Shown: positions 6,233 through 42,588, counted from the first letter of the stretch. The stretch: 45,834 nucleotides of DNA from an uncultured Gammaproteobacteria bacterium (GCA_905612355.1 CAJQRU010000067.1:1-45834); one strand, 5' to 3'. Program-made: numbers and translations. Notes: generated by a model from the letters alone, not told the origin.

Positions 6233-6396
6233 GAAAAGTCCCCCTCCAAGTCCTGCTTGCTGACACGCGAAACGCGAGAGGTTAGCAGAACGAGTCCTAA
6301 ACAGTTGAATATAAAGAGTAATACACATCTTATAGAAAAAGCTTCAAGATGGCTCAGGCTTCCACAACCTTGGGCTTAATGTTTATACTGACAAAG

Positions 6397-6425
6397 TTGA
6401 CAGTCGTCTCAACGATGTATCTATT
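6397..6425 (+). promoter_or_regulatory. Candidate sigma-70 promoter of the Liv/lar unit
   Basis: A perfect -35 hexamer TTGACA (6397-6402) lies about 45 bp upstream of the binding-protein start. The -10 is not clean: TATCTA follows at 15 bp and TCTATT at 17 bp spacing. The site sits inside ACTG-N10-CAGT symmetry and the sequence repeats TGACA nine bases apart, so a regulator could bind here. This is the only good promoter-like sequence I found for the 15-gene unit downstream. Confidence 0.4.
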
Positions 6426-6447
6426 GTTTATTCAGGAGGATAAGAAT

Positions 6448-7773
6448 ATGAAACACAGAGTTTTAAGACTTGTGGCAGTTGGCGTCGCCGCGGTGCTGAC
6501 AACCTTTGGCGTGGCAGTAGGCAATGCCGTTGCGAAAGACAAGATGGTGATTGCCGTACCCACGTTCTTGACTGGGGGCGGTGCGCCGGCCTTCGGTGTT
6601 CCCGCTCGAAATGGCACTGAATTGATCATTCAGGCGATCAATAAAGGACAGGTGCCTGCGCCCTACAATACAAAAGGAATAGCCGGCGCGCAGGTTGAGG
6701 CCATTATCTATGATGAGTCTGGCGGTGGCGCCAAGCAGGTAACGGAATACAGAAACAAAGTACAGAAGTTGGGTGTCGATATGTTTGCAGGCTTTGTGTC
6801 GTCTGGCACTTGCGCGGCCATCACGCCAGTGGCTGAAGAACTCAAGACCCTTACGGTGTATGCCACATGCGGTACGCCACGGGTTTTTGAGGAATTAGAT
6901 AAGAATCCGAAATATGTTTTCCGGACAATGAGTCACGCGACGGCTGACGGCGTTGCATTGGCACATTACGTGGCAAGCAAATACCCTTCTGCTAATGGTT
7001 ATACCGGTATCAATCAGAACTACGCGTGGGGGCAGGACTCGTGGCGCGATTTTGATTTAGCGATGAAGGTATTGGCGCCCAACATCAAAGGTTCGGATAA
7101 GGGCCAATGGCCCAAGATTTTTGCGGGTCGCTATGGGGCCGAAATCTCTGCACTATTAAAATCACCAGAAGACCTGGTCCATACCAGTTTTTGGGGTGGG
7201 GATCTCGAGGCATTTATTTTTCAAGGTTTGGCGCGGGGATTATTCAAGAAAAAGACGTTTCTGATGTCGGTGGCAGGTACTGCTGCCTACCGATTAGGCA
7301 AGAAACTGCCTGCTGGAATTGTGTTGGGCTCCAGAGGGCCCTACGGCATTTATGCTAACCAGTTGACTGATACGCCGATGGTTAAGTGGTTTAATAATGC
7401 GTATGTCAATCGATATGGAACACAGCCAACGCAGCCAAGTTACCAATACGCCCAGGCGATTCTTGGCGCAAAGTTTGCCTATGAGAAAGCCGCAGCAGCG
7501 AATAGTGGGAAATGGCCGTCAACCGATCAGGTCATTGCAGCGTTGGAAGGGGCAACTTTCCAAGGTGTCGCCACAGAAGTTCGTATGGCGCGCAGTAATG
7601 GGCACCAGGGTGTGACTGATCACGCCTGGGGTGTGGCGAGTTTTGATAAAGAACTCGGTCTGCCGGTGGTGAGCGAGGTCATGCACTTTAAAGGCGATTG
7701 CATCATGCCGCCCGATGGCATGGACAGTGTCACTTGGCTTAAAGGTGGGATGAAAGGCGCGAAGTGCGACTGA
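6448..7773 (+). CDS. ABC transporter periplasmic substrate-binding protein, branched-chain amino acid (Liv/type 1) family
   Basis: A 441-residue precursor with a signal peptide (MKHRVLRL, hydrophobic core, then NAVAKDK as the likely cleavage region). The mature protein has the type 1 periplasmic binding fold: NGTELIIQAIN, IIYDESGGG, DMFAGFVSSGTCAAITPVAEE, and a NQNYAWGQDSWRDF segment in the second lobe. The ATG was chosen because AGGAGG sits seven bases upstream and a signal peptide follows directly; an upstream in-frame ATG at 6349 lacks both. It is followed by a perfect hairpin and then livHMGF-type genes, so it is the binding protein of that importer. The ligand is unknown; this family binds amino acids, amides, urea and aromatic acids. 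Confidence 0.88.
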   Translation: MKHRVLRLVAVGVAAVLTTFGVAVGNAVAKDKMVIAVPTFLTGGGAPAFGVPARNGTELIIQAINKGQVPAPYNTKGIAGAQVEAIIYDESGGGAKQVTEYRNKVQKLGVDMFAGFVSSGTCAAITPVAEELKTLTVYATCGTPRVFEELDKNPKYVFRTMSHATADGVALAHYVASKYPSANGYTGINQNYAWGQDSWRDFDLAMKVLAPNIKGSDKGQWPKIFAGRYGAEISALLKSPEDLVHTSFWGGDLEAFIFQGLARGLFKKKTFLMSVAGTAAYRLGKKLPAGIVLGSRGPYGIYANQLTDTPMVKWFNNAYVNRYGTQPTQPSYQYAQAILGAKFAYEKAAAANSGKWPSTDQVIAALEGATFQGVATEVRMARSNGHQGVTDHAWGVASFDKELGLPVVSEVMHFKGDCIMPPDGMDSVTWLKGGMKGAKCD

Positions 7774-7792
7774 TTTGATTTGATATGTTTGT

Positions 7793-7819
7793 GGTCCGGG
7801 GCAGTTCTTGCCCCGGACC
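7793..7819 (+). other. Intercistronic hairpin between binding protein and permease genes
   Basis: A perfect 11-bp inverted repeat, GGTCCGGGGCA (7793-7803) and TGCCCCGGACC (7809-7819), with a 5-nt loop, lies 19 bp after the binding-protein stop. It is very GC-rich but no T-run follows, so it is not a classic intrinsic terminator. Such hairpins can protect the upstream mRNA from 3' decay or partly attenuate transcription, giving more binding protein than permease. Confidence 0.75.
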
Positions 7820-7878
7820 CTCTCTGTAATGCTGAGCGTGGATCGCCGGCTCGATACGTCATAACGGTCACATAGATT

Positions 7879-8805
7879 ATGGTTCAACTGCTTTTGGGAT
7901 GGTTTGATCTACAGCTGATTTTTACGATCCTTACTGATGGTTTGATCTACGGATCCTATCTTTTTATTGTTGCGGTGGGGATGACGGTGATTTTTGGCGT
8001 GCAGCGAGTGCTGAATGTGACGCACGGTTCGTTTTACGCTTTTGGGGCTTATCTTGCGGCTTACCTCGGAGGCATTTGGTACGAGCATGAGTTACCGGAT
8101 TTTGGTGGATTCGTCATCATTTTTTTGGCTGCCATTGTGGTGGGTGTCTTTTTTGGCATTTTGATCGAGCGAGGATTGCTTAAGCATCTTTACGGAAAAG
8201 ACGAGCATATTGTTGTTTTAGCCACGTTTGCGGCGTTTCTAGCGCTCGAAGGCATCGGCTTGTTTATCTGGGGCACGGATCCTTACTTTTTCTATCAACC
8301 CCAAATGATGCTGGGATTCGTTGAGATTCTGGGGATGACCTATGATTACTACAATCTCTCGCTCATTGTTCTTGCGCTCATTATCTCGCTTTCGATTTGG
8401 TATTTTTTGAGTCGAACAATATGGGGCAGATTGTTGCAGGCCGTCATTTTTGATCGAGAGGTTAGCCAGGCGATGGGAGTCAATGTCACGGCGGTGTTTC
8501 TTGGGACATTTATTCTAGGGACAACGCTTGGGGCATTAAGCGGGGCTGCGATAGCGCCCACGATCTCGGTGTTGCCGGGGATTGGCGTCGAAGTTGTGGT
8601 GCTTGCCTTTGCGGTAGTGGTGATAGGGGGAATGGGAAGTATCCCAGGGGCTTTGATAGGCTCGGTTCTGGTGGGCGTGGTTCGCGCAGCTGCTATACAT
8701 GAGTTTCCTCAGGCGGAGATGTTTGTGATTTACGCGATCATGGCTATCGTACTGGTCTTTCGGCCTGAAGGTTTGTTCGCACCGCCAGCTGTCAGGAAGA
8801 TCTGA
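7879..8805 (+). CDS. livH: Branched-chain amino acid type ABC permease (LivH family)
   Basis: A 308-residue hydrophobic protein with about eight membrane segments. Family landmarks are GLIYGSYLFIVAVGMTVIFGVQRVLNVTHGSFYAFGAY at the N-terminus (shown here in part as VLNVTHGSFYAFGAY), a FDREVSQAMGVNV loop, and the C-terminal AFAVVVIGGMGSIPGAL with RPEGLF near the end. It forms the inner-membrane channel with the LivM homologue that follows; the two genes overlap at TGATG. The ATG begins a protein of normal length. It is placed between the binding protein and the ATPases of the same system. Confidence 0.9.
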   Translation: MVQLLLGWFDLQLIFTILTDGLIYGSYLFIVAVGMTVIFGVQRVLNVTHGSFYAFGAYLAAYLGGIWYEHELPDFGGFVIIFLAAIVVGVFFGILIERGLLKHLYGKDEHIVVLATFAAFLALEGIGLFIWGTDPYFFYQPQMMLGFVEILGMTYDYYNLSLIVLALIISLSIWYFLSRTIWGRLLQAVIFDREVSQAMGVNVTAVFLGTFILGTTLGALSGAAIAPTISVLPGIGVEVVVLAFAVVVIGGMGSIPGALIGSVLVGVVRAAAIHEFPQAEMFVIYAIMAIVLVFRPEGLFAPPAVRKI

Positions 8806-9755
8806 TGTCCGCTGATAAAACTATTATTGGTGTCACCATCGCCGTTGTGCTGTTGGCGTGTGCTAACTTTTTTATCGCCGATTGGATTCGTCAGATCGGC
8901 TTGTTGAGTATGGCGATTGGGTCGGTGGCCCTGGGGCTGTTGGTGCTATGGCGGACGGGCCTGATTTCTTTTGGTCATGCGCTTTTTTATGGTTTCAGTG
9001 CCTATGGTGTTGCGTTATTGAATTATCTTGGGGTTCGTGATGCCTTTGTGTTGGTCATTGTTTCTGCCGCTGCCTCCGGATTACTTGCCTGGGGGCTTGG
9101 ATTTCTCGTGCGGCGCTATCGGGCAATTTTCTTTGCGCTGTTGACCATGGCATTCTCCATGATTCTGTACGGGGTTTTGGCCAAGACAGAACGATTTGGC
9201 AGTACCGATGGCCTTAATGTTCACCCCCCGACATTTCTTGGGTATGCGCCGGTCGACCAGGCGGCTCAGATTACCTTATTTCTGTTTGGCTTATTGGTGA
9301 TCTATGGACTGATCTTGGGCGTGCAGATTTATCTTCGTTCAGTCCTTGGACAAATGACAACGGCGGTGCGGGAAAACGAAATCCGAGTGGAGTACCTCGG
9401 TTATTCGGTGGAGCACGTCATCCATATAAAATATGTCATCTCTGGCCTGTTAGCTGGTTTTGGTGGCGCGATAATGGCGCTTGCGGTGGGTCAAGTTGAC
9501 CCAGAGTCGATGGCTTACTGGACTGCTTCGGGAGAATTTGTTTTTGTAGCGATCCTCGCGGGTACGGGTAATGTGGCGGCACCGTTTATTGGCGCGGTAG
9601 CTTTCGAAGTCATTCGCCACTTTGCTTGGGAGCATGGCGCTAATCTGTGGCAGTTGATCATGGGGGGCACGCTACTGGCTATCATTATGTTCGTCCCCGA
9701 CGGTATTTGGTCCGTGCTGCAGCGTTTGGTAGGGAAAAAGGATGGTGTGAAGTGA
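8805..9755 (+). CDS. livM: Branched-chain amino acid type ABC permease (LivM family)
   Basis: A 316-residue membrane protein with the LivM pattern: GLISFGHALFYGFSAYGVAL (residues about 48-67), the cytoplasmic loop TTAVRENEIRVEYLGYSVEHV that contacts the ATPases, and LAGTGNVAAPFIGA near the C-terminus. It begins at an ATG whose A is the last base of the livH stop, so it is translationally coupled to livH. Together the two permeases make the translocation pore for the substrate delivered by the upstream binding protein. Confidence 0.9.
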   Translation: MSADKTIIGVTIAVVLLACANFFIADWIRQIGLLSMAIGSVALGLLVLWRTGLISFGHALFYGFSAYGVALLNYLGVRDAFVLVIVSAAASGLLAWGLGFLVRRYRAIFFALLTMAFSMILYGVLAKTERFGSTDGLNVHPPTFLGYAPVDQAAQITLFLFGLLVIYGLILGVQIYLRSVLGQMTTAVRENEIRVEYLGYSVEHVIHIKYVISGLLAGFGGAIMALAVGQVDPESMAYWTASGEFVFVAILAGTGNVAAPFIGAVAFEVIRHFAWEHGANLWQLIMGGTLLAIIMFVPDGIWSVLQRLVGKKDGVK

Positions 9756-10525
9756 CAACTATTCTGGAGGTTAACGGCCTTGAGAAGCGTTTCGGGGGTG
9801 TGGTCGCCGCCCAGAATATTGGTGTGACCGTTTCTGCCGGCGAGACGATCGGGATCATCGGCGCGAACGGTGCTGGCAAGACGACATTCGTCAATATGGT
9901 GACCGGTCATCTCCCCCCAAGCGCAGGGACTGTCAAGTTTCTAGGGACTAATATCGTGGGCTTGCCACCACGGCGCATCACGGAATTAGGGCTTTGTCGC
10001 TCTTTCCAGGTTCCCCAGGTCTTTCTGTCAGAGTCGGTGTTTGATAACGTTTTGATGGCCTATGGCATTGCGGAGGAGTCCGGTTTCAGCATGTTGCGCC
10101 CCCTTCGAAACAAAGAGCGCGATGCGCGCGTTAGAAAGCACCTGGCCAGTTACCAGATCGCTGAGCATGAAGAAACCGCTGCCAGTGCATTGTCCCAGGG
10201 CATTCGAAAGTTGTTGGATATCGCGATGGCTACTGTGCGCAAACCGCAGTTACTGATGCTCGACGAACCCACCAGTGGCATTAGTGTGGAGGAAAAATTC
10301 GATCTGATGGATATCATCATGGCTGCACTACGTGAGGAACAAACTACGGTGATGTTTATTGAACATGACATGGAGATTGTTCAGCGTCATGTTGCGCGCG
10401 TGCTGGCGTTTTCTCAGGGTGAAATCATTTGCGATGCACCCACTGCGAAGGCCATGGTCGACCCCAAAGTGGTCGAGTTTGTTTTGGGCCAGGAGTACCA
10501 CGTCGGGATACGCAGTGATGCTTAA
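9752..10525 (+). CDS. livG: Branched-chain amino acid type ABC ATPase (LivG family)
   Basis: A 257-residue ATPase. The Walker A motif is GANGAGKTT (residues about 36-44), the signature reads LSQGIRKLLDIA rather than LSGGQ, Walker B is LLMLDEPTSGI, and the H-loop is IEHDM. The LivG-specific SFQVPQVFLSESVFDNVLMA segment is present. I chose the GTG overlapping the livM stop (GTGA), which gives VTTILEVNGLEKRFGG, the normal family beginning; the longer frame from 9647 runs far into livM. It works as a heterodimer with the next ATPase on the cytoplasmic side of the importer. Confidence 0.88.
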   Translation: MTTILEVNGLEKRFGGVVAAQNIGVTVSAGETIGIIGANGAGKTTFVNMVTGHLPPSAGTVKFLGTNIVGLPPRRITELGLCRSFQVPQVFLSESVFDNVLMAYGIAEESGFSMLRPLRNKERDARVRKHLASYQIAEHEETAASALSQGIRKLLDIAMATVRKPQLLMLDEPTSGISVEEKFDLMDIIMAALREEQTTVMFIEHDMEIVQRHVARVLAFSQGEIICDAPTAKAMVDPKVVEFVLGQEYHVGIRSDA

Positions 10526-11165
10526 AGTTAATCGTCTAGATGCAAGTATTGGCCCGACGCCAATTTTGAGGGCGATTGATTTAGAGGTTTCTGCGGGCAC
10601 TATGTGCGGTCTGATAGGACGCAACGGCGCAGGCAAAACAACCGTAATGCGAACGATCATGGGTCTTCTGACGGCAACGGCCGGGCACGTCGAGTTTGAG
10701 GGGACAGATCTGGTGCCGATTGATGGTTATCGCCGCGCACGTTTGGGAATTGGCTACATGCCAGAGGATCGCCGCCTAGTGCCCCAGTTGACGACTGAGG
10801 AGAATATCATGGTGCCGGTTTGGGCAACCCATTTAGCGAATTCACAACAGCGGTTACGCTGGATTTTCGACCTCATGCCTGAGGTGGAAGAATTTCGGCA
10901 TCGAAGAGCAGCTGAGTTGTCCGGTGGTCAGCAAAAATTCGTGGCCTTCGGGCGGGCTTTAATGGCAGGCACCCGCTTATTGCTCCTGGATGAGCCAAGC
11001 GAGGGAATCGCGCCGGTGTTTGTGCGGCGAATGATTGAAATCCTGAAAGATTTGAAAGACGAGGGACAGGCAGTTTTAGTTGCAGAATCCAACGATGTCC
11101 ATATCAGCCATTTGCTGGACCAGACGTTTGTTATCGAGCGCGGGAGCATCGTCGAGAAACGTTGA
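10518..11165 (+). CDS. livF: Branched-chain amino acid type ABC ATPase (LivF family), short C-terminus
   Basis: A 215-residue ATPase with Walker A GRNGAGKTT, the LivF-typical GYMPEDRRLVPQLTTEENI, signature LSGGQQKFVAFGRALM and Walker B LLLLDEPSEGIAP. The H-loop position reads AESN, whereas LivF proteins usually have EQN. It starts at an ATG eight bases before the livG stop. It is about 20 residues shorter than common LivF proteins because the protein ends at IERGSIVEKR, without the usual GPASEL-type tail; translation beyond the TGA does not restore a family-like end, so this looks like a natural short form rather than a fresh nonsense mutation. Confidence 0.85.
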   Translation: MLKVNRLDASIGPTPILRAIDLEVSAGTMCGLIGRNGAGKTTVMRTIMGLLTATAGHVEFEGTDLVPIDGYRRARLGIGYMPEDRRLVPQLTTEENIMVPVWATHLANSQQRLRWIFDLMPEVEEFRHRRAAELSGGQQKFVAFGRALMAGTRLLLLDEPSEGIAPVFVRRMIEILKDLKDEGQAVLVAESNDVHISHLLDQTFVIERGSIVEKR

Positions 11166-11200
11166 TCGCCAGGCTCTTGCCCAGACAGGGAGTGGTAGCA

Positions 11201-12163
11201 ATGCCTAAACGAATGACTTTTGTGCCAGAAGGGGTTATCCCTGCGGTTCTATTACCGTTTCTAGAAGACCTATCGATTGATGAGGGCGCTTATCGGCAAC
11301 ATCTGCGCTATGTCGCGAGCACAACGGGTCTTACAGCGTTGGCAACGAACGCGCATTCGTCTGAAGTGGCGTCGTGTACGTTCGAAGAACAGGTCCGAGT
11401 GCTAGAGCTCACCCTGGATGAAGTAGGTGACCAGTTGCCCATTGTCAATGGGATTTACGCCGATGGCAGCCTAGAGGCTGCCCGTCTGGCCCGCATGGCC
11501 GACGTTGGTGGTGCTTCCGCGCTGCTTGTGTTCCCTCCTAATCCGTTCAGCTTGGGTGCGCAATCCCGTCCCGAAATGGCGATCAAGCATTTTGAAGTCA
11601 TCGCGGAGGCAACGGATCTTCCCATCATTGTCTTTCAATACCCTTTGGCAAGTGGGCAAGGCTATCCGTTGGAAACGTTGCTCCAAATTTGCGATGTCGT
11701 GCCAAGCGTCTGCGCTATCAAGGATTGGTGCAACAACGTTCAACAACATGAGAGACAAATCCAGGCGTTGCAGTCATTAGCACGCCCCGTCAATGTGCTG
11801 ACCACACACAGTTCGTGGTTATTGAGCTCATTAGTGCTCGGATGCAAGGGGTTGTTGTCGGGTTCGGGCAGTGTCATCGCAGACTTGCAGGTGGCGTTGT
11901 TTAATGCGATCCGGGAAGGCCGCCTGGATATTGCGAAAGACCTGAATGAGAGAATTCGGGCCACCGCAGACGTGTTTTATGCGGATCCGTTTGTTGATAT
12001 GCACAACCGTATGAAAGTGGCGCTAGTGGCTTTGGGCCGGATTCCCTCGGGGGCGGTTAGGCCGCCCCTGGTGCCACCGGATTCAGCGGAAAAAGTGCGC
12101 ATTGCTGACGCGATGACGTTGGCGGGAATCGCACCTGAGGGAGCCATCCTCGAGGCTGCATAA
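11201..12163 (+). CDS. DapA/NanA-family lyase (dihydrodipicolinate synthase-like aldolase)
   Basis: A 320-residue TIM-barrel protein of the class I aldolase DHDPS/NAL family. The Schiff-base lysine is K174 in CAIKDW and the catalytic tyrosine is Y147 in VFQYPLA. The N-terminal GTTGE-type loop is replaced by TNAHSSEV, so it is unlikely to be a true dihydrodipicolinate synthase. Relatives cleave or form 2-keto acids from pyruvate. The ATG at 11201 starts next to family sequence (TFVPEGVIPAVLLPF); a longer frame from 11162 would extend only into livF. Position in the unit suggests an aldol step that releases pyruvate, or a keto-acid dehydratase step; this is inference. Confidence 0.85.
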   Translation: MPKRMTFVPEGVIPAVLLPFLEDLSIDEGAYRQHLRYVASTTGLTALATNAHSSEVASCTFEEQVRVLELTLDEVGDQLPIVNGIYADGSLEAARLARMADVGGASALLVFPPNPFSLGAQSRPEMAIKHFEVIAEATDLPIIVFQYPLASGQGYPLETLLQICDVVPSVCAIKDWCNNVQQHERQIQALQSLARPVNVLTTHSSWLLSSLVLGCKGLLSGSGSVIADLQVALFNAIREGRLDIAKDLNERIRATADVFYADPFVDMHNRMKVALVALGRIPSGAVRPPLVPPDSAEKVRIADAMTLAGIAPEGAILEAA

Positions 12164-12190
12164 GGGTCGCAAAGATAAAAAGGTGTCGCA

Positions 12191-13048
12191 TTGAATAACG
12201 AACACATCACGCTGGAGGCTATCGCGCGCCTCGAGGATGCACCTGACGCACGATTTAAAGCGGTGATGACTTCTGTGGTAAGGCACCTCCACGACATTGT
12301 CAGAGAGGTCGAGCCCACGATGGCGGAATGGGAGCAGGCCATTCGTTTCTTAACCGAAGTGGGACACTGGAGTGATGATAAACGTCAGGAATTTATTATT
12401 TTATCGGATACCCTCGGCATTACGATGTTGGTCGATGCCATTTCCAATCAAAAACCCGAAGGCGCGACAGAAACGACCGTGCTCGGACCTTTTTTTGTCG
12501 AGGACGCGAAGTCGCTCCCTTACGGCGCTAATATTTCGGAGAGTGGGGATGGCGAACCGACCCTGGTAACGGGCTCGGTCAGGGGGCTAGATGGGGAGTC
12601 GGTGAGTAATGCTCGTCTGGATGTGTGGCAGGCAGGGCCCGACGGATTTTACGACGTACAGCAACCGAACAAGTTTCCACATGGAAATCTTCGTGGTGTC
12701 TTTAAAACGGATGAAGCGGGCCGTTTTGCATTTTGTACAGTGAAACCCGCCCCGTATCCGGTACCTACGGATGGACCTGTCGGGCGCATGTTACTGGCGG
12801 CAGGCCGCCATGCGTGGCGACCTGCTCACCTGCATTTCATTATCACGGCTGATGGTTACCAGCGGGTTACTACGCATCTTTTTGTTGCCGGAAGCGAGTA
12901 CTTGGATGGAGATGTTGTGCAGGCAGTCAAAGCAAGTTTAATTGTGGACTTCACTAAGTGTGATGACCCTGAAGAATCGGCACGTTTCAATTTACCTATT
13001 CCTTATTTCAAACTAGATCATCAGTTTGTACTCGCACCGGAGATTTAA
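12191..13048 (+). CDS. Intradiol ring-cleavage dioxygenase (catechol/hydroxyquinol 1,2-dioxygenase family)
   Basis: A 285-residue non-haem Fe(III) dioxygenase. The N-terminal helical dimerisation domain includes FLTEVGHWSDDKRQEFIILSDTLG; the catalytic domain starts after TVLGPFF. All four iron ligands are visible: Tyr154 (GFYDVQQP), Tyr189 (PAPYPVP), His213 and His215 (RPAHLHF). The WQAGPDGFYD and HLHFI arrangement is closest to hydroxyquinol or chlorocatechol 1,2-dioxygenases. The start is TTG, seven bases after AAGGTG; no in-frame ATG lies before the N-terminal domain. The enzyme opens a catecholic ring between the hydroxyls. No maleylacetate reductase or muconate cycloisomerase follows directly, so the downstream route is unclear. 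Confidence 0.88.
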   Translation: MNNEHITLEAIARLEDAPDARFKAVMTSVVRHLHDIVREVEPTMAEWEQAIRFLTEVGHWSDDKRQEFIILSDTLGITMLVDAISNQKPEGATETTVLGPFFVEDAKSLPYGANISESGDGEPTLVTGSVRGLDGESVSNARLDVWQAGPDGFYDVQQPNKFPHGNLRGVFKTDEAGRFAFCTVKPAPYPVPTDGPVGRMLLAAGRHAWRPAHLHFIITADGYQRVTTHLFVAGSEYLDGDVVQAVKASLIVDFTKCDDPEESARFNLPIPYFKLDHQFVLAPEI

Positions 13049-13055
13049 CGTACTT

Positions 13056-13715
13056 ATGTCTGATCCGTTAATTGAATTCGACGATCGGGATTTAGCAGCA
13101 CAGCGCGCGGTTAAGCATCTTAGAGGTCTTGTCATTGATAAGGACACGATAAGACGCCTGTTGTCGGAGGCGCGCACACACAATGCCTGGCATGAACGTG
13201 ATGTGCCCGATGAAACGCTGCGATCCATACATGATTTAATGCAAAAAGGGCCGACCAGTGCTAACGGGTCCCCGGCCCGTCTCGTTTTTTTGCAAAGCGA
13301 TGATGCTAAGGAAAGGCTGCGCCCCGCATTAACACCAGGAAATGTTGAAAAAACCATGAGTGCGCCTGTTACGGCTATTTTGGGTTACGACATTGAGTTC
13401 TGGCGGAACGCGGATGTCACGTTCCCGCACAAACCGGAAGTTCAAACGGCTTATCAGGAAAAGCCGGAGGCATCCGAGACCGTAGCATTTCGCAATAGTT
13501 CTTTGCAGGGTGCGTACCTGATTATTGCCTCGCGGGCCCACGACCTCGACTGCGGCCCTATGTCGGGGTTTGATAACAAGCTGGTTGATCTTGAATTCTT
13601 CGCAGGCACTACGATCAAGTCCAACTTGTTGTGCAATCTAGGTTATGGTGATGCCGATCGGCTTCTAAAGAGATCACCGAGGTTAGGGTTTGATATGGTG
13701 TGCGAGATTTTGTGA
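13056..13715 (+). CDS. RutE-like nitroreductase-family reductase (malonic semialdehyde reductase type)
   Basis: A 219-residue flavin reductase of the nitroreductase fold. The segments ARTHNAWHERDVPDETL, HDLMQKGPTSANGSPARLVFL and GPMSGFD match the RutE/HadB subfamily. RutE reduces malonic semialdehyde to 3-hydroxypropionate at the end of uracil breakdown. No other rut genes are present here, so it may act on another 3-oxo acid or quinone-like product of the ring cleavage next door. It starts eight bases after the dioxygenase stop; GGAGAT lies upstream. An extended start at 13026 would overlap that gene and adds non-conserved residues. Confidence 0.82.
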   Translation: MSDPLIEFDDRDLAAQRAVKHLRGLVIDKDTIRRLLSEARTHNAWHERDVPDETLRSIHDLMQKGPTSANGSPARLVFLQSDDAKERLRPALTPGNVEKTMSAPVTAILGYDIEFWRNADVTFPHKPEVQTAYQEKPEASETVAFRNSSLQGAYLIIASRAHDLDCGPMSGFDNKLVDLEFFAGTTIKSNLLCNLGYGDADRLLKRSPRLGFDMVCEIL

Positions 13716-13717
13716 GT

Positions 13718-14539
13718 ATGGAAGTCTCAGCATCCTCTGGAGGGTTTGGAGCGGAAATCAGTGGAATCACCACTTCACAGGCATTGAGTGATGACGAGTT
13801 AACGACCCTCCACGATGCCCTTGTGAGTCACCGGGCGATTGTCGTGCATGATCTTGATGAAGACGTTGGTTGGCTGCGTCGTTTGGGCCGATATTTCGGT
13901 CCGTTAGTGCCACATATTTTGGATCAGTATCATCACCCAGAAACGGATGAGGTTTCAATCATTGCCCGCAACATGGATAGTCCCGAATCACGTACAACGG
14001 CAACGCCCGCGGGATCATTTTGGCATACGGACCTCACTTACAAGAATGAGCCGTCTGATGCCATCTTTCTTTATGCGACCCATCTCCCAACGAAAGGTGG
14101 CGATACCCTGGTGGCCGATTTGGCGGCGGCTTATGCTGATTTACCCGAGGCAACCAAAGAAAGGATCGAGAATCTGACCGCAACCCACCGATTTGGTTGG
14201 AATACTGGGGGTGGAACGCCGAAGTTGACGGATTCTCAAGAGAACGCTCACCCAGACGTCATTCATCCAGTCGTTCGCCGGCATCCGAAGACTGGAGAGA
14301 AGGTTCTTTACGTCAATCCCGGTTATACGATGTGCATTAACGAGTTAGCCCGCATTGAAGGTGACGGGCTTCTGGATGCATTGTTCGCCCATAGCTTGAA
14401 CGAGAAATACCAGCATAGACATCATTGGGAGAAAGGGATGCTGCTTGGTTTGGATAACCGGGCGACGATGCATAAGGCGGTTAATGACTATGACGAACCG
14501 CGTCGGATGCTTCGAATGATTGTAGGCCATACTGGCTAA
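13718..14539 (+). CDS. TauD/TfdA-family Fe(II)/2-oxoglutarate-dependent dioxygenase
   Basis: A 273-residue protein starting MEVSASSGGFGAEISGI, the standard TauD/TfdA beginning, two bases after the upstream stop. The metal-binding facial triad is complete: His103 and Asp105 in WHTDLTY, and the distal His at about 252 in NRATMHKA; the 2-oxoglutarate-binding arginine is in the following DEPRRMLRMIV. Alternative GTG starts at 13700 and 13712 overlap the previous gene. The family hydroxylates small acids such as taurine, 2,4-D or sulphonates, using 2-oxoglutarate and oxygen. Its role may be to hydroxylate or dealkylate the transported substrate. A decayed relative of this gene lies at 29068. Confidence 0.88.
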   Translation: MEVSASSGGFGAEISGITTSQALSDDELTTLHDALVSHRAIVVHDLDEDVGWLRRLGRYFGPLVPHILDQYHHPETDEVSIIARNMDSPESRTTATPAGSFWHTDLTYKNEPSDAIFLYATHLPTKGGDTLVADLAAAYADLPEATKERIENLTATHRFGWNTGGGTPKLTDSQENAHPDVIHPVVRRHPKTGEKVLYVNPGYTMCINELARIEGDGLLDALFAHSLNEKYQHRHHWEKGMLLGLDNRATMHKAVNDYDEPRRMLRMIVGHTG

Positions 14540-14612
14540 TGTCTGATTAAGACTGAGCTACAAACCCGCGCGTGATTCGACGAGGTCTCCCGATTTGGTA
14601 CCATTGGGCGTT

Positions 14613-15809
14613 ATGAGCTCCCAGCATTTCAATCATTTGCACTTGGATGTGGTTGGCGGCATTGCCGGTGACATGTTCGCTGCTGCGATTCTGGATCTTC
14701 TGCCGGAGCTTCAGGCTGAAGTTGATAGCATGCTGTCGGCGACCGGCTTGATCGATATGGTCAATGTCCGACGACACGATCATAGCGACGGCATGCTCAC
14801 GGGTTCGCGCGTTTCCGTAATGCCCGTTAGTGCGCCTGCGCATCATCACCGCGCATGGCGTGAAATACGCGAGATGATCGCTTCGATGGACCTTTCTGAC
14901 GGTGCGCGGGTGTGTTCAATCGATATTTTCTCACGGCTGGCCGAAGCGGAAGGACGTGTGCACGGAAAGCCGACTGACGACGTGAGCTTTCATGAAGTCG
15001 GTGCATGGGATTCAATTGCGGATATTGTTGTAGCGGGCTGGCTTGTTGACCGCTTATCGCCTTTGACCTGGTCTTGTTCTGCGCTACCCAAAGGATCGGG
15101 GGAGGTGACCACGGCACATGGACCGCTACCGGTGCCAACCCCGGCCACCGCGCTATTGCTCGAGGGCATGCCGTTGGTTGACGATGGCGTTGCCGGTGAA
15201 CGGATTACTCCGACTGGGGCTGCGATCTTGGCTCATCTTGGTCCGACGTTTGCCGGTGATGCTGTAGTGCGTACGCTTGCCGGCACGGGGACTGGGTTTG
15301 GAACGCGGGAACTGCAGGGTCGCTCAAATATCCTACGTGTTCTAGGCTATCGTGATGAACTAGGGTCTGAGTGGCAACAGGAAACAGTGGGGGTCTGCGA
15401 GTGCGAGATCGACGACCAAACAGCCGAGGATCTTGCGGTTGCACTCGAGCGTCTCCGTCAGTTGGAGGGTGTCTACGATGTGTTGCAGTCACCCGTCTAT
15501 GGCAAGAAGATGCGTATCATGGCTAATATTCGAGTATTGTTTGACCCTTCGATTGAGGAAACGCTCGTGAGGACTTGTTTCGCTGAAACAACGACGCTTG
15601 GACTTCGGCTTTCGAGTGTCCGCCGACAGTTTTTGTCACGGAATTTCCGTAGCGTAACGCGAGATGGCGAGACCTTCCGTCTAAAGGAGAGTGAGCGACC
15701 CAGCGGCGGCAATAGCCGGAAAGTAGAGATGGATGACATTAAAAATGTTGAAGGAGGTCATTTGGCTCGCGAAAGCATACGGCGAAAGACAGAAAATGAA
15801 GACGCCTGA
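14613..15809 (+). CDS. larC: LarC, nickel insertion protein (cyclometallase) of nickel-pincer cofactor biosynthesis
   Basis: A 398-residue protein beginning with the LarC hallmark HLDVVGGIAGDMFAAAILD (residues about 9-27). Other conserved parts are HHHRAWREIREMI, VHGKPTDDVSFHEVGAWDSIADIV, GPLPVPTPATALLLEG and a C-terminal segment with CEIDDQTAEDLAVALE and SPVYGKKMR. LarC inserts nickel into the dithiolated nucleotide using CTP, the last step of cofactor assembly. In Lactiplantibacillus larC is split by a programmed frameshift; here one uninterrupted frame covers both halves. An ATG at 14595 is also possible, but 14613 is closer to the family start. larE overlaps its end by 14 bp. Confidence 0.93.
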   Translation: MSSQHFNHLHLDVVGGIAGDMFAAAILDLLPELQAEVDSMLSATGLIDMVNVRRHDHSDGMLTGSRVSVMPVSAPAHHHRAWREIREMIASMDLSDGARVCSIDIFSRLAEAEGRVHGKPTDDVSFHEVGAWDSIADIVVAGWLVDRLSPLTWSCSALPKGSGEVTTAHGPLPVPTPATALLLEGMPLVDDGVAGERITPTGAAILAHLGPTFAGDAVVRTLAGTGTGFGTRELQGRSNILRVLGYRDELGSEWQQETVGVCECEIDDQTAEDLAVALERLRQLEGVYDVLQSPVYGKKMRIMANIRVLFDPSIEETLVRTCFAETTTLGLRLSSVRRQFLSRNFRSVTRDGETFRLKESERPSGGNSRKVEMDDIKNVEGGHLARESIRRKTENEDA

Positions 15810-16599
15810 TTTTACCGACAAACTCAGTAAACATCTTTCCGGTTTTGGCTCTGTTGCTATAGCTGTCAGTGGCGGCGTGGACAGTATGACTCTCGCCTGT
15901 GTTGCCCATGAGGCAACCGCTATTGTCGTTTATCACGCAGTATCTCCAGCAGTTCCTTTCGAAGCAACGGATCGCGTCCGACGCTATAGCGAGGCACGCG
16001 GGTGGGCGTTAGAAATCATCGATGCGGGAGAATTTGAAGACCAAGCCTACATTGCTAATCCTGCTAACCGATGTTATTTCTGCAAGAACAATCTGTACGG
16101 GACCATCGTGTCTGCCGCAGGGATACAGGTCTTGTCAGGAACAAATACAGACGATCTTGGCGATTACCGACCGGGCCTTAAAGCGGCCGCAGAATACGGT
16201 GTACGCCATCCGTTTGTTGAATGTGACATTGATAAAAACGGGATACGTGCAATCGCAGCGCAGCTGGGTTTAACGGACCTTGCTGAATTGCCATCTGCGC
16301 CGTGTCTTTCCAGTCGAATTGAGACGGGTCTGCCGATCCACGCTCCGATACTCGCGGTCGTTCATCGAGTTGAAAAACTGGTGAGAGATAGGCTGCATCC
16401 GTCTACTGTTCGGTGCCGAGTACGGGCAGAAGATATTGTGGTGGAGATGGATGAACCAACTTTTAAAAATATTAATGATGAGGAACGAGTTAAGCTTGGG
16501 TCGACGGTAGGGGATTATTTCGATGAGGTCGGAGTCAATCGACCCGTCCGATTTGCCGCTTATCGTCGAGGCAGTGCTTTCATCAGGGTGGCCACATGA
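15796..16599 (+). CDS. larE: LarE, sulfur transferase of nickel-pincer cofactor biosynthesis (CxxC type)
   Basis: A 267-residue PP-loop ATPase with SGGVDS (residues 25-30) and TNTDDLGDYRPGLKAA. LarE adenylates the carboxylated pyridinium nucleotide and converts its two carboxylates to thiocarboxylates. The cysteines are informative: NRCYFCK gives Cys93 and Cys96, and SAPCLSSR gives Cys170. This pattern resembles the iron-sulfur cluster-containing LarE class, rather than the form that sacrifices a single cysteine as in L. plantarum. The ATG lies inside the larC end, so the pair is coupled; the AAGGAGG at 15751-15757 has no usable start in this frame close behind it. The stop overlaps larB (ATGA). 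Confidence 0.92.
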   Translation: MKTPDFTDKLSKHLSGFGSVAIAVSGGVDSMTLACVAHEATAIVVYHAVSPAVPFEATDRVRRYSEARGWALEIIDAGEFEDQAYIANPANRCYFCKNNLYGTIVSAAGIQVLSGTNTDDLGDYRPGLKAAAEYGVRHPFVECDIDKNGIRAIAAQLGLTDLAELPSAPCLSSRIETGLPIHAPILAVVHRVEKLVRDRLHPSTVRCRVRAEDIVVEMDEPTFKNINDEERVKLGSTVGDYFDEVGVNRPVRFAAYRRGSAFIRVAT

Positions 16600-17273
16600 G
16601 TGATGAGGTTGTACTCGACGATGATCGTATTAATCGGGTTGGCATAGATGAAGGTATCTTGTGTGAGGGGAAAAGCGTTGAACAAATCGAAACGATTATC
16701 ACAACGGCTCAACGGGTTGATCGCAGACTGTTCCTGACTCGACTCACGCCAAATCACTTCGGCCAACTCGCAAATAATATTCAGACCTTGCTGGATTATG
16801 ATTCTGTTTCACGTACCGCCATACTTGGAGCCATCAGGACTCCTTTCGGTGATCCGAAAGTGGCGATTGTCACGGCAGGCACGTCGGACGTGCCTATCGC
16901 CCGTGAAGCGACGCGCACACTTTTGTATCATGGTGTGAGTTCGACTGAGATCCACGATGTGGGAGTGGCTGGACTTTGGCGATTACAGCGACGCGTGTCT
17001 GAACTCTCAGATTACCCGGTAATTATTGCTGTCGCGGGAATGGACGCGGCCTTACCGACAGTGCTTGGGGGCTTGGTCTCCGGTCTATTGATAGGAGTTC
17101 CGTCGTCAACTGGATACGGGGTGAGTCGAAAGGGAGAGTCAGCGCTGGCTTCGATGCTCGTGAGTTGTGCGCCGGGCATTGCTGTTACCAACATAGATAA
17201 TGGATTTGGGGCCGCCTGTATTGCGCTTCGAGGGTTACGCGCCGCCGCGCTGGTTGGTATGGCTTCAGGATAA
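16596..17273 (+). CDS. larB: LarB, NaAD carboxylase of nickel-pincer cofactor biosynthesis
   Basis: A 225-residue protein with a PurE-like C-terminal domain: AIVTAGTSDVPIAREA, IIAVAGMDAALPTVLGGLV, GVPSSTGYGVS and TNIDNGFGAACIA are diagnostic LarB segments. LarB carboxylates nicotinic acid adenine dinucleotide at C5 of the pyridine ring and hydrolyses the phosphoanhydride, giving the first cofactor intermediate. The N-terminal 90 residues match the short LarB-specific region including RTPFGDPK. The ATG overlaps the larE stop and larA starts nine bases after its stop, so the whole lar set is one coupled unit. Confidence 0.93.
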   Translation: MSDEVVLDDDRINRVGIDEGILCEGKSVEQIETIITTAQRVDRRLFLTRLTPNHFGQLANNIQTLLDYDSVSRTAILGAIRTPFGDPKVAIVTAGTSDVPIAREATRTLLYHGVSSTEIHDVGVAGLWRLQRRVSELSDYPVIIAVAGMDAALPTVLGGLVSGLLIGVPSSTGYGVSRKGESALASMLVSCAPGIAVTNIDNGFGAACIALRGLRAAALVGMASG

Positions 17274-17281
17274 ACCTTTCC

Positions 17282-18589
17282 ATGGACATACAGCTTAAAT
17301 ACGGACGGCGGGGTCTTTTGGTTTCTTTTCCGCCATCGGTAGCCCCAACAATTATTCGAAAACCCGTTATGCCGCTTGTAGAGGATACGGCGGAAACCAT
17401 TCGTAATGCGCTGTTCGATCCGATCGGTTGTAAGCCTCTCTTGGAAATTGGCAGGAGTGTGCAATCTGTGGCAATCGCAGTTTGCGATATTACTCGCCCC
17501 GTTCCAAACAGATTGTTTCTTCGACCGCTGATTGAATGTTTAATGCAGGCGGGAATTGAACGCCGTCATATTAAGATATTGATAGCAACTGGGCTGCACC
17601 GGCCCAATATTGGTAATGAGCTCAGTGAGGTTATTGGGGACCCCTGGGTTGAGGAATGTGTGGAAGTCATCAACCATGATGCGCGAGATGATCATCAACA
17701 TGTATTGATTGGCCATACAAAAAAACGCAATACCCCGGTGCGACTCGATAGACGATTCGTAGAAGCCGACCTTCGCATCGTATCGGGATTGGTCGAACCC
17801 CATTTCATGGCGGGGTATTCAGGAGGTCGTAAAGTGATTGCCCCGGGCCTTGCTCATGCTGAGACCATCACTACGTTTCATAACGCACGCTTTATGGGTG
17901 ATCCGCTTGCTGAAAACTGTACCCTTGTGGGTAACCCGCTGCATGAAGAACAGCTTGAGATTGTTGAGATGTTGGGAGGGGCGTTCGCGGTCAATACGGT
18001 TATTGATGAGTCGAAGCGTTTGTCATATATCAATTTTGGAGAGATACGGAAAAGTCATATCGATGCGGTTAAATTTGTTCGCCAGTATTGCGAAATTGAG
18101 ATCGATAAACAGTATGCGACCGTTGTTACGACGTCGGCTGGATATCCACTTGACAAGACGTACTACCAGACGGTGAAGGGCATGGTGGGTGCGTTAGGGG
18201 TGCTGCGGCCCGGAGGGCGTTTAATTATCGCTTCTGAAATCTCGGAAGGGCTTGGATCGCCAGAATATGTCGAGTCCCAACGACGCTTATTAAAACTCGG
18301 TGCCGAGTCGTTCATGAAAATGATCGAAGCGCAACGGCTTGCCCGGGTTGATGAGTGGCAGACTCAAATGCAACTCAAGGCGATGGCGCGCGGTTCCATC
18401 AGTCTTTACTCAACTGGTCTGAGTCTGGAAGATGGTGAGTTAACCGGTGTCGAACGGATCGACTCTATAGCAACAGCGGTTATGTCGAGTGTCGCAGCGT
18501 GCGGGGATTCGGCAGTGGCTGTTATTCCTGAAGGCCCCTACGTCGTGCCGATCTATCGTGATCGGAGTTTGCTGGAGGTGGCGGCGTAG
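17282..18589 (+). CDS. larA: LarA-family nickel-pincer 2-hydroxyacid racemase/epimerase
   Basis: A 435-residue DUF2088 protein. Cofactor and catalytic residues are present: VCDITRPVPN, His106 in ATGLHRP, and GLVEPHFMAGYSGGRK, where His174 and Lys184 carry the same numbers I recall for L. plantarum LarA (Lys184 holds the cofactor), and His200 in TTFHNAR. GYPLDKTYYQTVKGM is also typical. The ATG follows AGGA in the larB stop region. LarA proper racemises lactate, but the superfamily includes racemases and epimerases of malate, longer 2-hydroxyacids and aldonates. Its place among oxygenases and aldolases argues for a catabolic hydroxyacid other than fermentation lactate; this is inference. No lactate permease or nickel transporter adjoins it. 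Confidence 0.92.
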   Translation: MDIQLKYGRRGLLVSFPPSVAPTIIRKPVMPLVEDTAETIRNALFDPIGCKPLLEIGRSVQSVAIAVCDITRPVPNRLFLRPLIECLMQAGIERRHIKILIATGLHRPNIGNELSEVIGDPWVEECVEVINHDARDDHQHVLIGHTKKRNTPVRLDRRFVEADLRIVSGLVEPHFMAGYSGGRKVIAPGLAHAETITTFHNARFMGDPLAENCTLVGNPLHEEQLEIVEMLGGAFAVNTVIDESKRLSYINFGEIRKSHIDAVKFVRQYCEIEIDKQYATVVTTSAGYPLDKTYYQTVKGMVGALGVLRPGGRLIIASEISEGLGSPEYVESQRRLLKLGAESFMKMIEAQRLARVDEWQTQMQLKAMARGSISLYSTGLSLEDGELTGVERIDSIATAVMSSVAACGDSAVAVIPEGPYVVPIYRDRSLLEVAA

Positions 18590-18631
18590 CTTTTAAGTTA
18601 ATCGTTGAACATAGTCAGGAAAATCTAACCG

Positions 18632-19480
18632 ATGCTTACACCAAAACAAATGATTGATTACCGTGAACACGGTTACGGAGGGCCCTTTCCCGCTCTCAGT
18701 ATGGCCGAGGTGTCGCGGTTTCGCGAAGAGCTTGAGGCATTCGAAGCCTCGCAGGGTGCGCGACTGTCTGTATTGCCTGGCCAGATTCGCGCCAAGACAC
18801 ATCTCTTGTTACCTTTTATGCAGGAATTGATTCGCTTAAAGCCGGTATTGGATGCAGTGGAAAGTTTAATCGGATCCAATTTGTTGGTCTATCACCTCAC
18901 CTGTTGGCTTAAGGAGCCTGGTGACGGCGCGTTTACGTCTTGGCACCAAGATGCGGCGTATTTTTTCCTCGATCCTCCCGAACATGTCACCGCGTGGATA
19001 GCCCTTTCGGACGCGACGCAAGAAAGCGGCTGTATGCGGGTGATTCCAGGGAGTCATCGAAGGGGTGCAATTGAGCACGGCAAAGGTGAGACGAACAACA
19101 ATCTTTTATCTAATGGACAGTTCGTGGATTCAGGAGAGACCGCACTAACTCAATTTCTCGAAGTGCCGGCCGGTCATTTTAGTTTGCACGACACCTATCT
19201 GGTTCATTCGTCGGCACCGAACAAAAGCTCTGAAAGACGCATAGGCATCGGAGTGAGTTATATCCCTACGCGTGTTAGGTGTACGCACGGAGGACCACTG
19301 AGTGCAACTTTGGTGCGCGGGGACGATGAGTACCGACACTTTCGACCAGAGCCACCGCCGTTGCGGGCGTATGATGCTGAGGCGGTAGCGACCCATGCTG
19401 AGGCGACGCATAACTTTTTTTCGCAACACGGTTCCGACCGGTCGGGTGCGGCTGAGCCTGAGGCGCAGGATGGAGAATAG
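18632..19480 (+). CDS. Phytanoyl-CoA dioxygenase (PhyH) family protein
   Basis: A 282-residue Fe(II)/2-oxoglutarate dioxygenase. The HxD pair is His105/Asp107 in SWHQDAAYF, the distal histidine is His192 in VHSSAPNKS, and a conserved arginine follows in ERRIGIG. AWIALSDATQESGCMRVIPGS is the standard PhyH strand region. AGGAAA precedes the ATG. Bacterial PhyH proteins hydroxylate many small molecules, including ectoine, phosphonates and amino acids, so a phytanoyl-CoA substrate is not implied. It is the second 2-oxoglutarate dioxygenase in the same unit and follows larA by 42 bp. Confidence 0.87.
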   Translation: MLTPKQMIDYREHGYGGPFPALSMAEVSRFREELEAFEASQGARLSVLPGQIRAKTHLLLPFMQELIRLKPVLDAVESLIGSNLLVYHLTCWLKEPGDGAFTSWHQDAAYFFLDPPEHVTAWIALSDATQESGCMRVIPGSHRRGAIEHGKGETNNNLLSNGQFVDSGETALTQFLEVPAGHFSLHDTYLVHSSAPNKSSERRIGIGVSYIPTRVRCTHGGPLSATLVRGDDEYRHFRPEPPPLRAYDAEAVATHAEATHNFFSQHGSDRSGAAEPEAQDGE

Positions 19481-19484
19481 TACG

Positions 19485-20648
19485 GTGACGAACACTTTAG
19501 GATTGCGTTTGGCAATTGAACGGATGCCGGTATCCCGAATTCGGGAGGTCGCAAATAAGAGTATGGGATTGGCTGATGTTATTCCTTTGTGGTTTGGCGA
19601 GCCAGACGTAGAAACCCCACAGTTTATTCGCGACGCCGCGGTTCAGGCGCTGGCTGATGGCGAGACATTTTATACCCCTAATCGGGGCGTTCCTGAGCTT
19701 CGTACGGCTTTGGCTGCCTATAGTTCCGCACTCTATGGTGTTCCAATCGGTGAAGACCGCATAACGGTTACCGCCTCTGGGATGAGTGCAATGATGCTGG
19801 CTCATCAGCTTCTGATTGAGCCGGGCAGCAACATCGTATGCCCGACACCCCAATGGCCAAACGTCAAGGGTACGGTCGATGTTCTCGGGGGGGATTTTAG
19901 GTCAGTCCCGCTTAACTTTACTGGCGATGACTGGGAACTCGATCTGGATGCCCTGTGTGCTGCGGTCGATGACAAAACCAGAATGATATTTGTTAACTCC
20001 CCGGGTAATCCCACGGGTTGGGTAATGCCAAGGGAACAACAGAAACGTTTGTTGCAGTACTGTCGAGAACAGGGATTATGGCTGGTGGCAGATGAAGTCT
20101 ATGCTCGCATTGTCTATGGTATGAAGCATGCGCCTTCCTTTCTTGAGCATGCAAAACCAGACGACCGCCTGATTGTCATCAACAGCTTTTCCAAGCCGTG
20201 GGCGATGACAGGATGGCGTTTGGGGTGGCTTACGACGCCAGGTCGGCTTGGTGAGCGCTTAGAAATCTTAAATGAATTTAACGTGGCTGGTGCATCGACA
20301 TTTGTCCAGCTTGCTGGGATAGTGGCCTTGCGTGATGGTGAGGATTTTATCTCACAACAGGTAGCGCGTTACCAGAATGCCCGCGATTATGTCTACGAAC
20401 GACTTGTCGAGCATACAAGAATACGTGTGGCTCGACCGCGTGGGGCGTTTTATGCGTTCTTTGCTATAGAGGGGATCGAAGACGATCTCGCTTTTTGTCA
20501 GGAATTGGTGAAAACGGCGAAAGTTGGTTTGGTTCCCGGGAGTGCCTTTGGGGCGTCCCAAGAAGGTTGGTTACGACTGTGCTTTGCGAGTGAAATCAAC
20601 ACGCTCGATAAGGCGCTTACGCGTCTGGAAGAAGCGATTGCGGCCTGA
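19485..20648 (+). CDS. PLP-dependent class I/II aminotransferase
   Basis: A 387-residue fold-type I aminotransferase. Motifs are PLWFGEPDVETP at the N-terminus, NSPGNPTG (171-178), DEVYARIVYG (Asp203 contacts the pyridine nitrogen) and SFSKPWAMTGWRLGW with the PLP lysine at 237. The GTG start is chosen because GGAGA lies eight bases upstream and the residues after it match the family; an ATG at 19470, overlapping the PhyH gene, would add five residues. The family moves amino groups between an amino acid and 2-oxoglutarate or pyruvate. As last gene of the unit it may process an amino acid imported by the Liv system. Confidence 0.88.
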   Translation: MTNTLGLRLAIERMPVSRIREVANKSMGLADVIPLWFGEPDVETPQFIRDAAVQALADGETFYTPNRGVPELRTALAAYSSALYGVPIGEDRITVTASGMSAMMLAHQLLIEPGSNIVCPTPQWPNVKGTVDVLGGDFRSVPLNFTGDDWELDLDALCAAVDDKTRMIFVNSPGNPTGWVMPREQQKRLLQYCREQGLWLVADEVYARIVYGMKHAPSFLEHAKPDDRLIVINSFSKPWAMTGWRLGWLTTPGRLGERLEILNEFNVAGASTFVQLAGIVALRDGEDFISQQVARYQNARDYVYERLVEHTRIRVARPRGAFYAFFAIEGIEDDLAFCQELVKTAKVGLVPGSAFGASQEGWLRLCFASEINTLDKALTRLEEAIAA

Positions 20649-36451: not shown

Positions 36452-36491
36452 ATGTTCAATAAATCCCAATCGAATAAAGGTAATGATAGGT

Positions 36492-42546: not shown

Positions 42547-42588
42547 TGCATTGATAATATTTAACGAGTTTAGTTGGGCGGTTTGCTA

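Follow-up and report, generated by a model that had tools for sequence, protein, structure and literature searches.

The larCEBA genes and their cofactor pathway

A complete set of lar genes, larC-larE-larB-larA, lies in a stretch of 45,834 nucleotides from an uncultured Gammaproteobacteria bacterium (GCA_905612355.1 CAJQRU010000067.1:1-45834), which we call the window and which corresponds to contig C67 of the 2.1 Mb host genome (G000; 62% complete). The host is probably a marine gammaproteobacterium, as its nearest relatives are gammaproteobacterial and the isolate name of one near relative (ALOHA) points to a marine origin. The lar genes belong to a run of 15 co-directional genes at 6349-20648, joined by overlaps or short gaps, which begins with a HAAT-type ABC transporter and ends with an aminotransferase. 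The four genes are genuine and intact; they are tightly coupled, with spacings of -14, -4 and +8 bp (from the coordinates), and evolve under purifying selection, with ratios of nonsynonymous to synonymous substitution rates (dN/dS) of 0.09-0.14 against a 96% identical relative. Family models matched all four, so that the head-to-tail set described in the original prediction, which was made from the sequence alone, stands; since the four family matches lie side by side, a chance match is excluded.

The set for biosynthesis of the nickel-pincer nucleotide (NPN) is complete, with LarB, LarC and LarE all above the curated NCBIfam cut-offs (Table 1). Together, these enzymes would build NPN from nicotinic acid adenine dinucleotide: LarB would yield pyridinium biscarboxylate, LarE would swap oxygen for sulfur, and LarC would insert nickel as a cytidine triphosphate-dependent cyclometallase. 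LarE has the PP-loop SGGVDS and, counted from the called start, the CXXC-C set Cys93, Cys96 and Cys170 (CYFC...C), the cysteine rule for LarE of the [4Fe-4S] type (PMC9283937). PP-loop and CXXC-C cysteines are common to this protein and the [4Fe-4S] sulfur insertase LarE of Thermotoga maritima, in a comparison by motifs alone. The lar operon of Lactiplantibacillus plantarum (larA-E; LarA structures 5huq/6c1w) encodes the same cofactor enzymes, and its LarA has the same catalytic residues; however, LarC is encoded in one frame in our host, and L. plantarum LarE uses a single sacrificial cysteine instead of the CXXC-C set. LarA would be loaded with NPN in the host.

Unlike in L. plantarum, neither a channel nor a nickel transporter lies near the host genes, as had been noted before: no lactate channel (LarD), lactate permease or known nickel transporter was seen among the scanned window proteins. 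NicO and HupE are absent from the host and three relatives (G001, G002, G007), in a search that did not include NikABCDE and CbiM. No proper urease was seen in these scans, and the matches to urease alpha were fragments of ~40-50 residues in other amidohydrolase-like frames.

Residues, predicted fold and pocket of LarA

LarA matches both of its Pfam families (Lar_N 186 bits, cut-off 23.3; LarA_C 53.6 bits, cut-off 25) and has all catalytic and NPN-binding residues, namely D69, R72, H106, H174, K184, H200, Y295, Q296 and K299 (reference positions in L. plantarum numbering: D72, R75, H108, H174, K184, H200, Q295, K298). The four key residues named in the original prediction, His106, His174, Lys184 and His200, were correct. 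An AlphaFold2 model of the protein (predicted local distance difference test, pLDDT, 92) found its best Foldseek match in the complex of Isosphaera pallida LarA with D-lactate, at 1.5 A, a template modelling (TM) score of 0.94 and 38% identity, followed by the lactate racemases of T. thermosaccharolyticum and L. plantarum (TM 0.83-0.90) and then by malate racemase (TM 0.70).

The predicted substrate pocket consists of F175, M176, W359 and Q360, and the side-chain pocket of the I. pallida complex is lined by Leu174, Met175, Trp356 and Gln357 (PMC11851776). A 2020 survey (PMC7583248) gives Leu-Met or Phe-Met as the hallmark of group 2, the short-chain aliphatic 2-hydroxyacid racemases (SAR), and the pocket marks of other LarA groups are given in a 2024 survey (PMC11770544). 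LarA carries the SAR signature (PMC7583248, PMC11851776), which combines Leu or Phe followed by Met after the second catalytic His with Trp-Gln in helix 14. The I. pallida enzyme (LarAH2/SAR; PDB 9eia, 9eid) is alike in fold, in catalytic and NPN residues, in the pocket Met, Trp and Gln, and in the motifs GLHRP and EPHxMAGYSGGRK, but it has Leu in place of Phe175 and shares 39% sequence identity with the host LarA, which falls into a separate, long-branched clade. By sequence, predicted fold and pocket, LarA thus appears to stand beside the I. pallida enzyme, a broad racemase of short-chain hydroxyacids.

Several other specificities of the family were rejected on the pocket residues. Malate racemase (MAR) has Lys at the T359 position and H/Q at W358, where LarA has Gln and Trp, and both malate racemase profiles stay below their cut-offs (NF052593, 278 vs 500 bits; NF052595, 272 vs 462 bits). 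With its F-M-W-Q pocket, LarA is excluded from the D-gluconate epimerases (GntE, E-V-A-H) and from the 2-hydroxyglutarate racemases (HGR, Y-F-H/Q-T), and its Trp excludes the hydrophobic-acid HHR group, which has Phe or Tyr at W358. An ordinary lactate racemase, acting on lactate only, would be in keeping with the lactate-racemizing enzymes that form the closest solved structures and with the best NCBIfam model, the lactate racemase equivalog NF033504 (Ni_dep_LarA). We regard this as improbable, as LarA reaches 331.5 bits against a cut-off of 460 in that model, is 28% identical to L. plantarum LarA, resembles the broad SAR enzyme in having Met176 and Gln360 in place of Phe and Thr/Glu, and has no lactate permease beside it in the window.

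Across 83 homologues, the catalytic residues, the F-M pair and Trp359 are invariant, and Gln360 is replaced by Glu only (4 sequences); the F-M pocket is also identical in homologues from searches that used no motif filter (L003-L005, L116, L120, L121). In a tree of 98 sequences, LarA falls into a clade with 99% support, together with planctomycete, verrucomicrobial and proteobacterial homologues. A further homologue of the same class (L117, G368:C22:179495-180760; 35% identical) contains one in-frame TGA. LarA enzymes like that of the host are rare in the phylum, with matches in 5 of 398 sampled genomes, host included. Of 61 relatives, the same 9 have both LarC and LarA proper; G009 gave fragmentary, weak matches only.

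We consider it the likelier account, with some reservation, that larCEBA forms a self-contained racemase module, probably for small 2-hydroxyacids such as lactate, 2-hydroxybutyrate or glycerate, flanked by units that are separable from it. LarA would hold NPN via Lys184 and His200, while His106 and His174 would alternate as acid and base; the C2 hydrogen of the 2-hydroxyacid would pass to the cofactor as a hydride and return on the other face, inverting C2. Proton-coupled hydride transfer is the established chemistry of the LarA family (PMC11851776). In this way, the cell could use either enantiomer of an acid imported or released by way of the surrounding catabolic genes. Because the pocket stays the same among clade members whose neighbours are unrelated, we argue for a general short-chain substrate that is not set by the operon.

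Several points weigh against this assignment. The invariance of the F-M pair is in part a selection effect in the 80 genome loci, as one search peptide held HFM. The 99% clade stands on long branches, apart from every characterised or solved reference used, and I. pallida LarA itself has a long branch, which starts at an open fork. An identity of 39% to the I. pallida enzyme is insufficient to fix the substrate, and, as the authors of both surveys caution, it is often predicted wrongly from pocket models and gene context (PMC7583248, PMC11770544). Moreover, three related genomes, all of a single genus, keep the whole cassette together.

Flanking genes as separable modules

The dioxygenases, the RutE-like reductase and the DapA-like protein around larCEBA are real (Table 1). 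The original prediction, which had listed them, was silent on the five-gene HAAT/LIV-type transporter and the aminotransferase in the same run. The full gene order is binding protein, two permeases, two ATPases, DapA-like, intradiol dioxygenase, RutE-like, TauD, larC, larE, larB, larA, PhyH and aminotransferase. Against the 96% identical relative, 13 genes of the run have dN/dS of 0.04-0.17, so that the genes are in use. They may be co-transcribed; promoter and terminator scans gave signals not clearly above those of shuffled sequences.

Table 1. Features of the gene run around larCEBA. Positions are counted from the first nucleotide of the window; model scores are in bits, with cut-offs in brackets.
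Feature	Position	Strand	Evidence and remarks
larC, LarC1 and LarC2 halves in one frame	14613..15809	+	PF01969 317 bits; TIGR00299 178.9 (cut-off 90); NF052512 100.4 (cut-off 50)
larE, predicted sulfur insertase, [4Fe-4S] type	15796..16599	+	TIGR00268 232.3 (cut-off 150); overlaps larC by 14 nt
larB	16596..17273	+	NF033503 237.9 (cut-off 175); overlaps larE by 4 nt
larA, predicted NPN-dependent 2-hydroxyacid racemase	17282..18589	+	PF09861 and PF21113; pLDDT 92; best PDB match 9eia, TM 0.94
HAAT/LIV-type ABC transporter: binding protein, two permeases, two ATPases	6349..11165	+	Pfam
DapA-like lyase	11201..12163	+	PF00701; alignment with 6mqh
Intradiol dioxygenase, hydroxyquinol 1,2-dioxygenase type	12191..13048	+	PF00775, PF04444; best PDB match PnpC 3n9t, 279 bits
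RutE-like reductase	13059..13715	+	NF003768 262.5 (cut-off 152)
TauD-family 2-oxoglutarate dioxygenase	13700..14539	+	PF02668 204.8 bits; PDB 3pvj
PhyH-family 2-oxoglutarate dioxygenase	18632..19480	+	PF05721; HxD motif
Aminotransferase, pyridoxal phosphate-dependent, last of run	19476..20648	+	NF004770 517.5 (cut-off 422)

The HxD motif of the PhyH-family protein suggests a hydroxylase rather than a halogenase. The DapA-like protein keeps the Schiff-base Lys and has Phe at the position of the usual catalytic Tyr of the dihydrodipicolinate synthase family (VFQYP vs LYNVP); with this Tyr replaced, its assignment as an aldolase is tentative.

Such a run could indicate a dedicated pathway step, in which LarA would act on one particular 2-hydroxyacid, a product of the TauD and PhyH dioxygenases, and epimerise it for the DapA-like lyase or the aminotransferase. 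The co-directional, closely spaced arrangement speaks for this reading, as do the unchanged cassette order in a relative whose proteins are 75-95% identical, with near-saturated synonymous sites, and a PhyH gene beside larC in one further locus (L026; 31% identity). Regions outside the run are, however, equally syntenic in that genus, so that gene order alone says little. In addition, the transporter+DapA and intradiol+RutE units are present in genomes without LarA and LarC, the LarA pocket is unchanged at loci that have none of these genes close by, and the usual catalytic Tyr is missing from the DapA-like protein. We therefore regard a dedicated step as unlikely. Of the function proposed in the original prediction, a racemase or epimerase for a catabolic 2-hydroxyacid, the part that holds is an NPN-dependent racemase outside the lactate equivalog; its placement as a step between oxidation and aldol cleavage is not supported.

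The distribution of the units among relatives bears directly on this question. The full cassette was seen inside one genus only, in the host and in G002 (96%) and G001 (78%), and G003 (82% complete) is without LarA and LarC. Within the family, G012, which also has neither, contains the unit of binding protein, two permeases, two ATPases and DapA-like protein at 77-90% identity, and the intradiol+RutE pair (61/56%) 63 kb away from it. This pair is kept in G014 and G016 as well, and in G043 the transporter-DapA unit is on a different contig from the lar genes. Conversely, all of the ~29 other lar loci that were checked are without intradiol dioxygenase, RutE-like and aminotransferase genes. The proposed tie between the lar genes and the flanking oxygenases consequently failed a test that had been set beforehand. 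Because the units occur without lar and lar occurs without the units, the run is best seen as an assembly: transporter+DapA-like and intradiol+RutE are separable modules gathered in one genus, with no fixed pathway around LarA. As a separate observation, the intradiol+RutE-like genes (12191-13715) form a conserved pair without lar genes in genus g6 of the host's family.

The order C-E-B-A recurs in a Burkholderiales clade, and an alphaproteobacterial group has A-C-E-B. Two loci of the latter group, in Rhizobium ruizarguesonis pRlX3 and Rhodovastum atsumiense RHOApc, have a complete NPN set and a LarA that is 58-59% identical to that of the host, with the same pocket; they differ from the host in the order larA-C-E-B, in the glycerate kinase directly after it and in having none of the oxygenase/aldolase genes. 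The adjacent glycerate kinase speaks for a small 2-hydroxyacid as the substrate of LarA.

Searches for wider associations of larA yielded little. All-against-all BLAST clustering of neighbours, which was dominated by planctomycete synteny and by antisense open reading frames in GC-rich loci, returned no recurrent lar partner beyond larC, larE and larB. Several loci (L014, L026, L045, L054, L069, L083, L084, L085) have PhyH or TauD genes at a distance of up to 10 kb, as different, distant members of these families; the idea that SAR-type LarA is linked to 2-oxoglutarate dioxygenases in general was given no weight, because the background frequency of PhyH/TauD could not be measured. A link to ABC transporters is likewise weak: a LIV-type transporter precedes larA in Rhizobiaceae (L003, L004, L120), but the transporter of the host family travels with the DapA-like gene. 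In two proteobacterial loci, a divergent aldo/keto reductase gene lies directly beside larA (L014:9018-9890 and L026:8988-9998; 76% mutual identity).

A second NPN enzyme and a possible catabolic island

The host genome encodes a second LarA homologue of NCBIfam group 22 (C96:14008-15180; L102:8996-10270), which scores 510 bits at a cut-off of 400. Since 239 bp separate the stretches of G001 that match the C96 end and the window start, this gene would lie ~17 kb before larC, just beyond the left edge of the window. It is adjoined by a short-chain dehydrogenase/reductase gene. Group 22 was found in seven sampled genomes, all of which have LarC, at ~1 kb from LarC in G146 and ~9 kb in G359. One cofactor set thus probably serves two NPN enzymes, LarA and the group-22 protein, for which the supply would come from the same larC, larE and larB; the support for two clients is good but not final, because the counts are few and the genomes related.

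The cofactor genes might even act mainly for the group-22 enzyme, with LarA as a secondary client. The strong group-22 matches in the host and in both of its cassette-bearing relatives, the position derived from G001 and the consistent company of LarC, close by in two genomes, would agree with this. We nevertheless think it improbable, as larC, larE and larB are coupled head to tail with larA and not with group 22, G007 has LarA and LarC and no group 22, and we found no demonstrated activity for this group. A broader scenario, in which a catabolic island of ~60 kb holds an F-M-clade LarA and a group-22 isomerase that share one cofactor set, and in which one or both would use a hydroxyacid from the neighbouring 2-oxoglutarate dioxygenases, also appears doubtful to us.

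Other genes of the window suggest a catabolic island for nitrogen-containing compounds: three genes of the hydantoinase A type, two of them with hydantoinase B partners (43-999, 34406-38472, 42574-44643), and two amidases. One hydantoinase B gene (36441-38472) is split over two frames (profile positions 1-471 and 465-519) by a frameshift or an assembly error. The segment 2680-6360, with GFO/IDH/MocA, DUF993 and MetE-like genes, is missing at the syntenic site of G001, and a GFO+DUF993 pair of ~62% identity lies near larA in a betaproteobacterial locus (L056).

Implications for the LarA family

The view that known lar operons mostly serve lactate metabolism, from which the original prediction started, is out of date, as the LarA superfamily also holds isomerases of malate, 2-hydroxyglutarate, gluconate and hydrophobic acids (PMC7583248, PMC11770544). 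To this known enzyme family, the locus adds a member of a clade of more than 80 homologues from Planctomycetota, Verrucomicrobiota and Pseudomonadota, in which we found no characterised enzyme. Operon context is modular here and a poor guide to the substrate. The locus is a clean case in which to test the F-M clade, glycerate as a possible substrate and the idea that two enzymes draw on a single NPN set.

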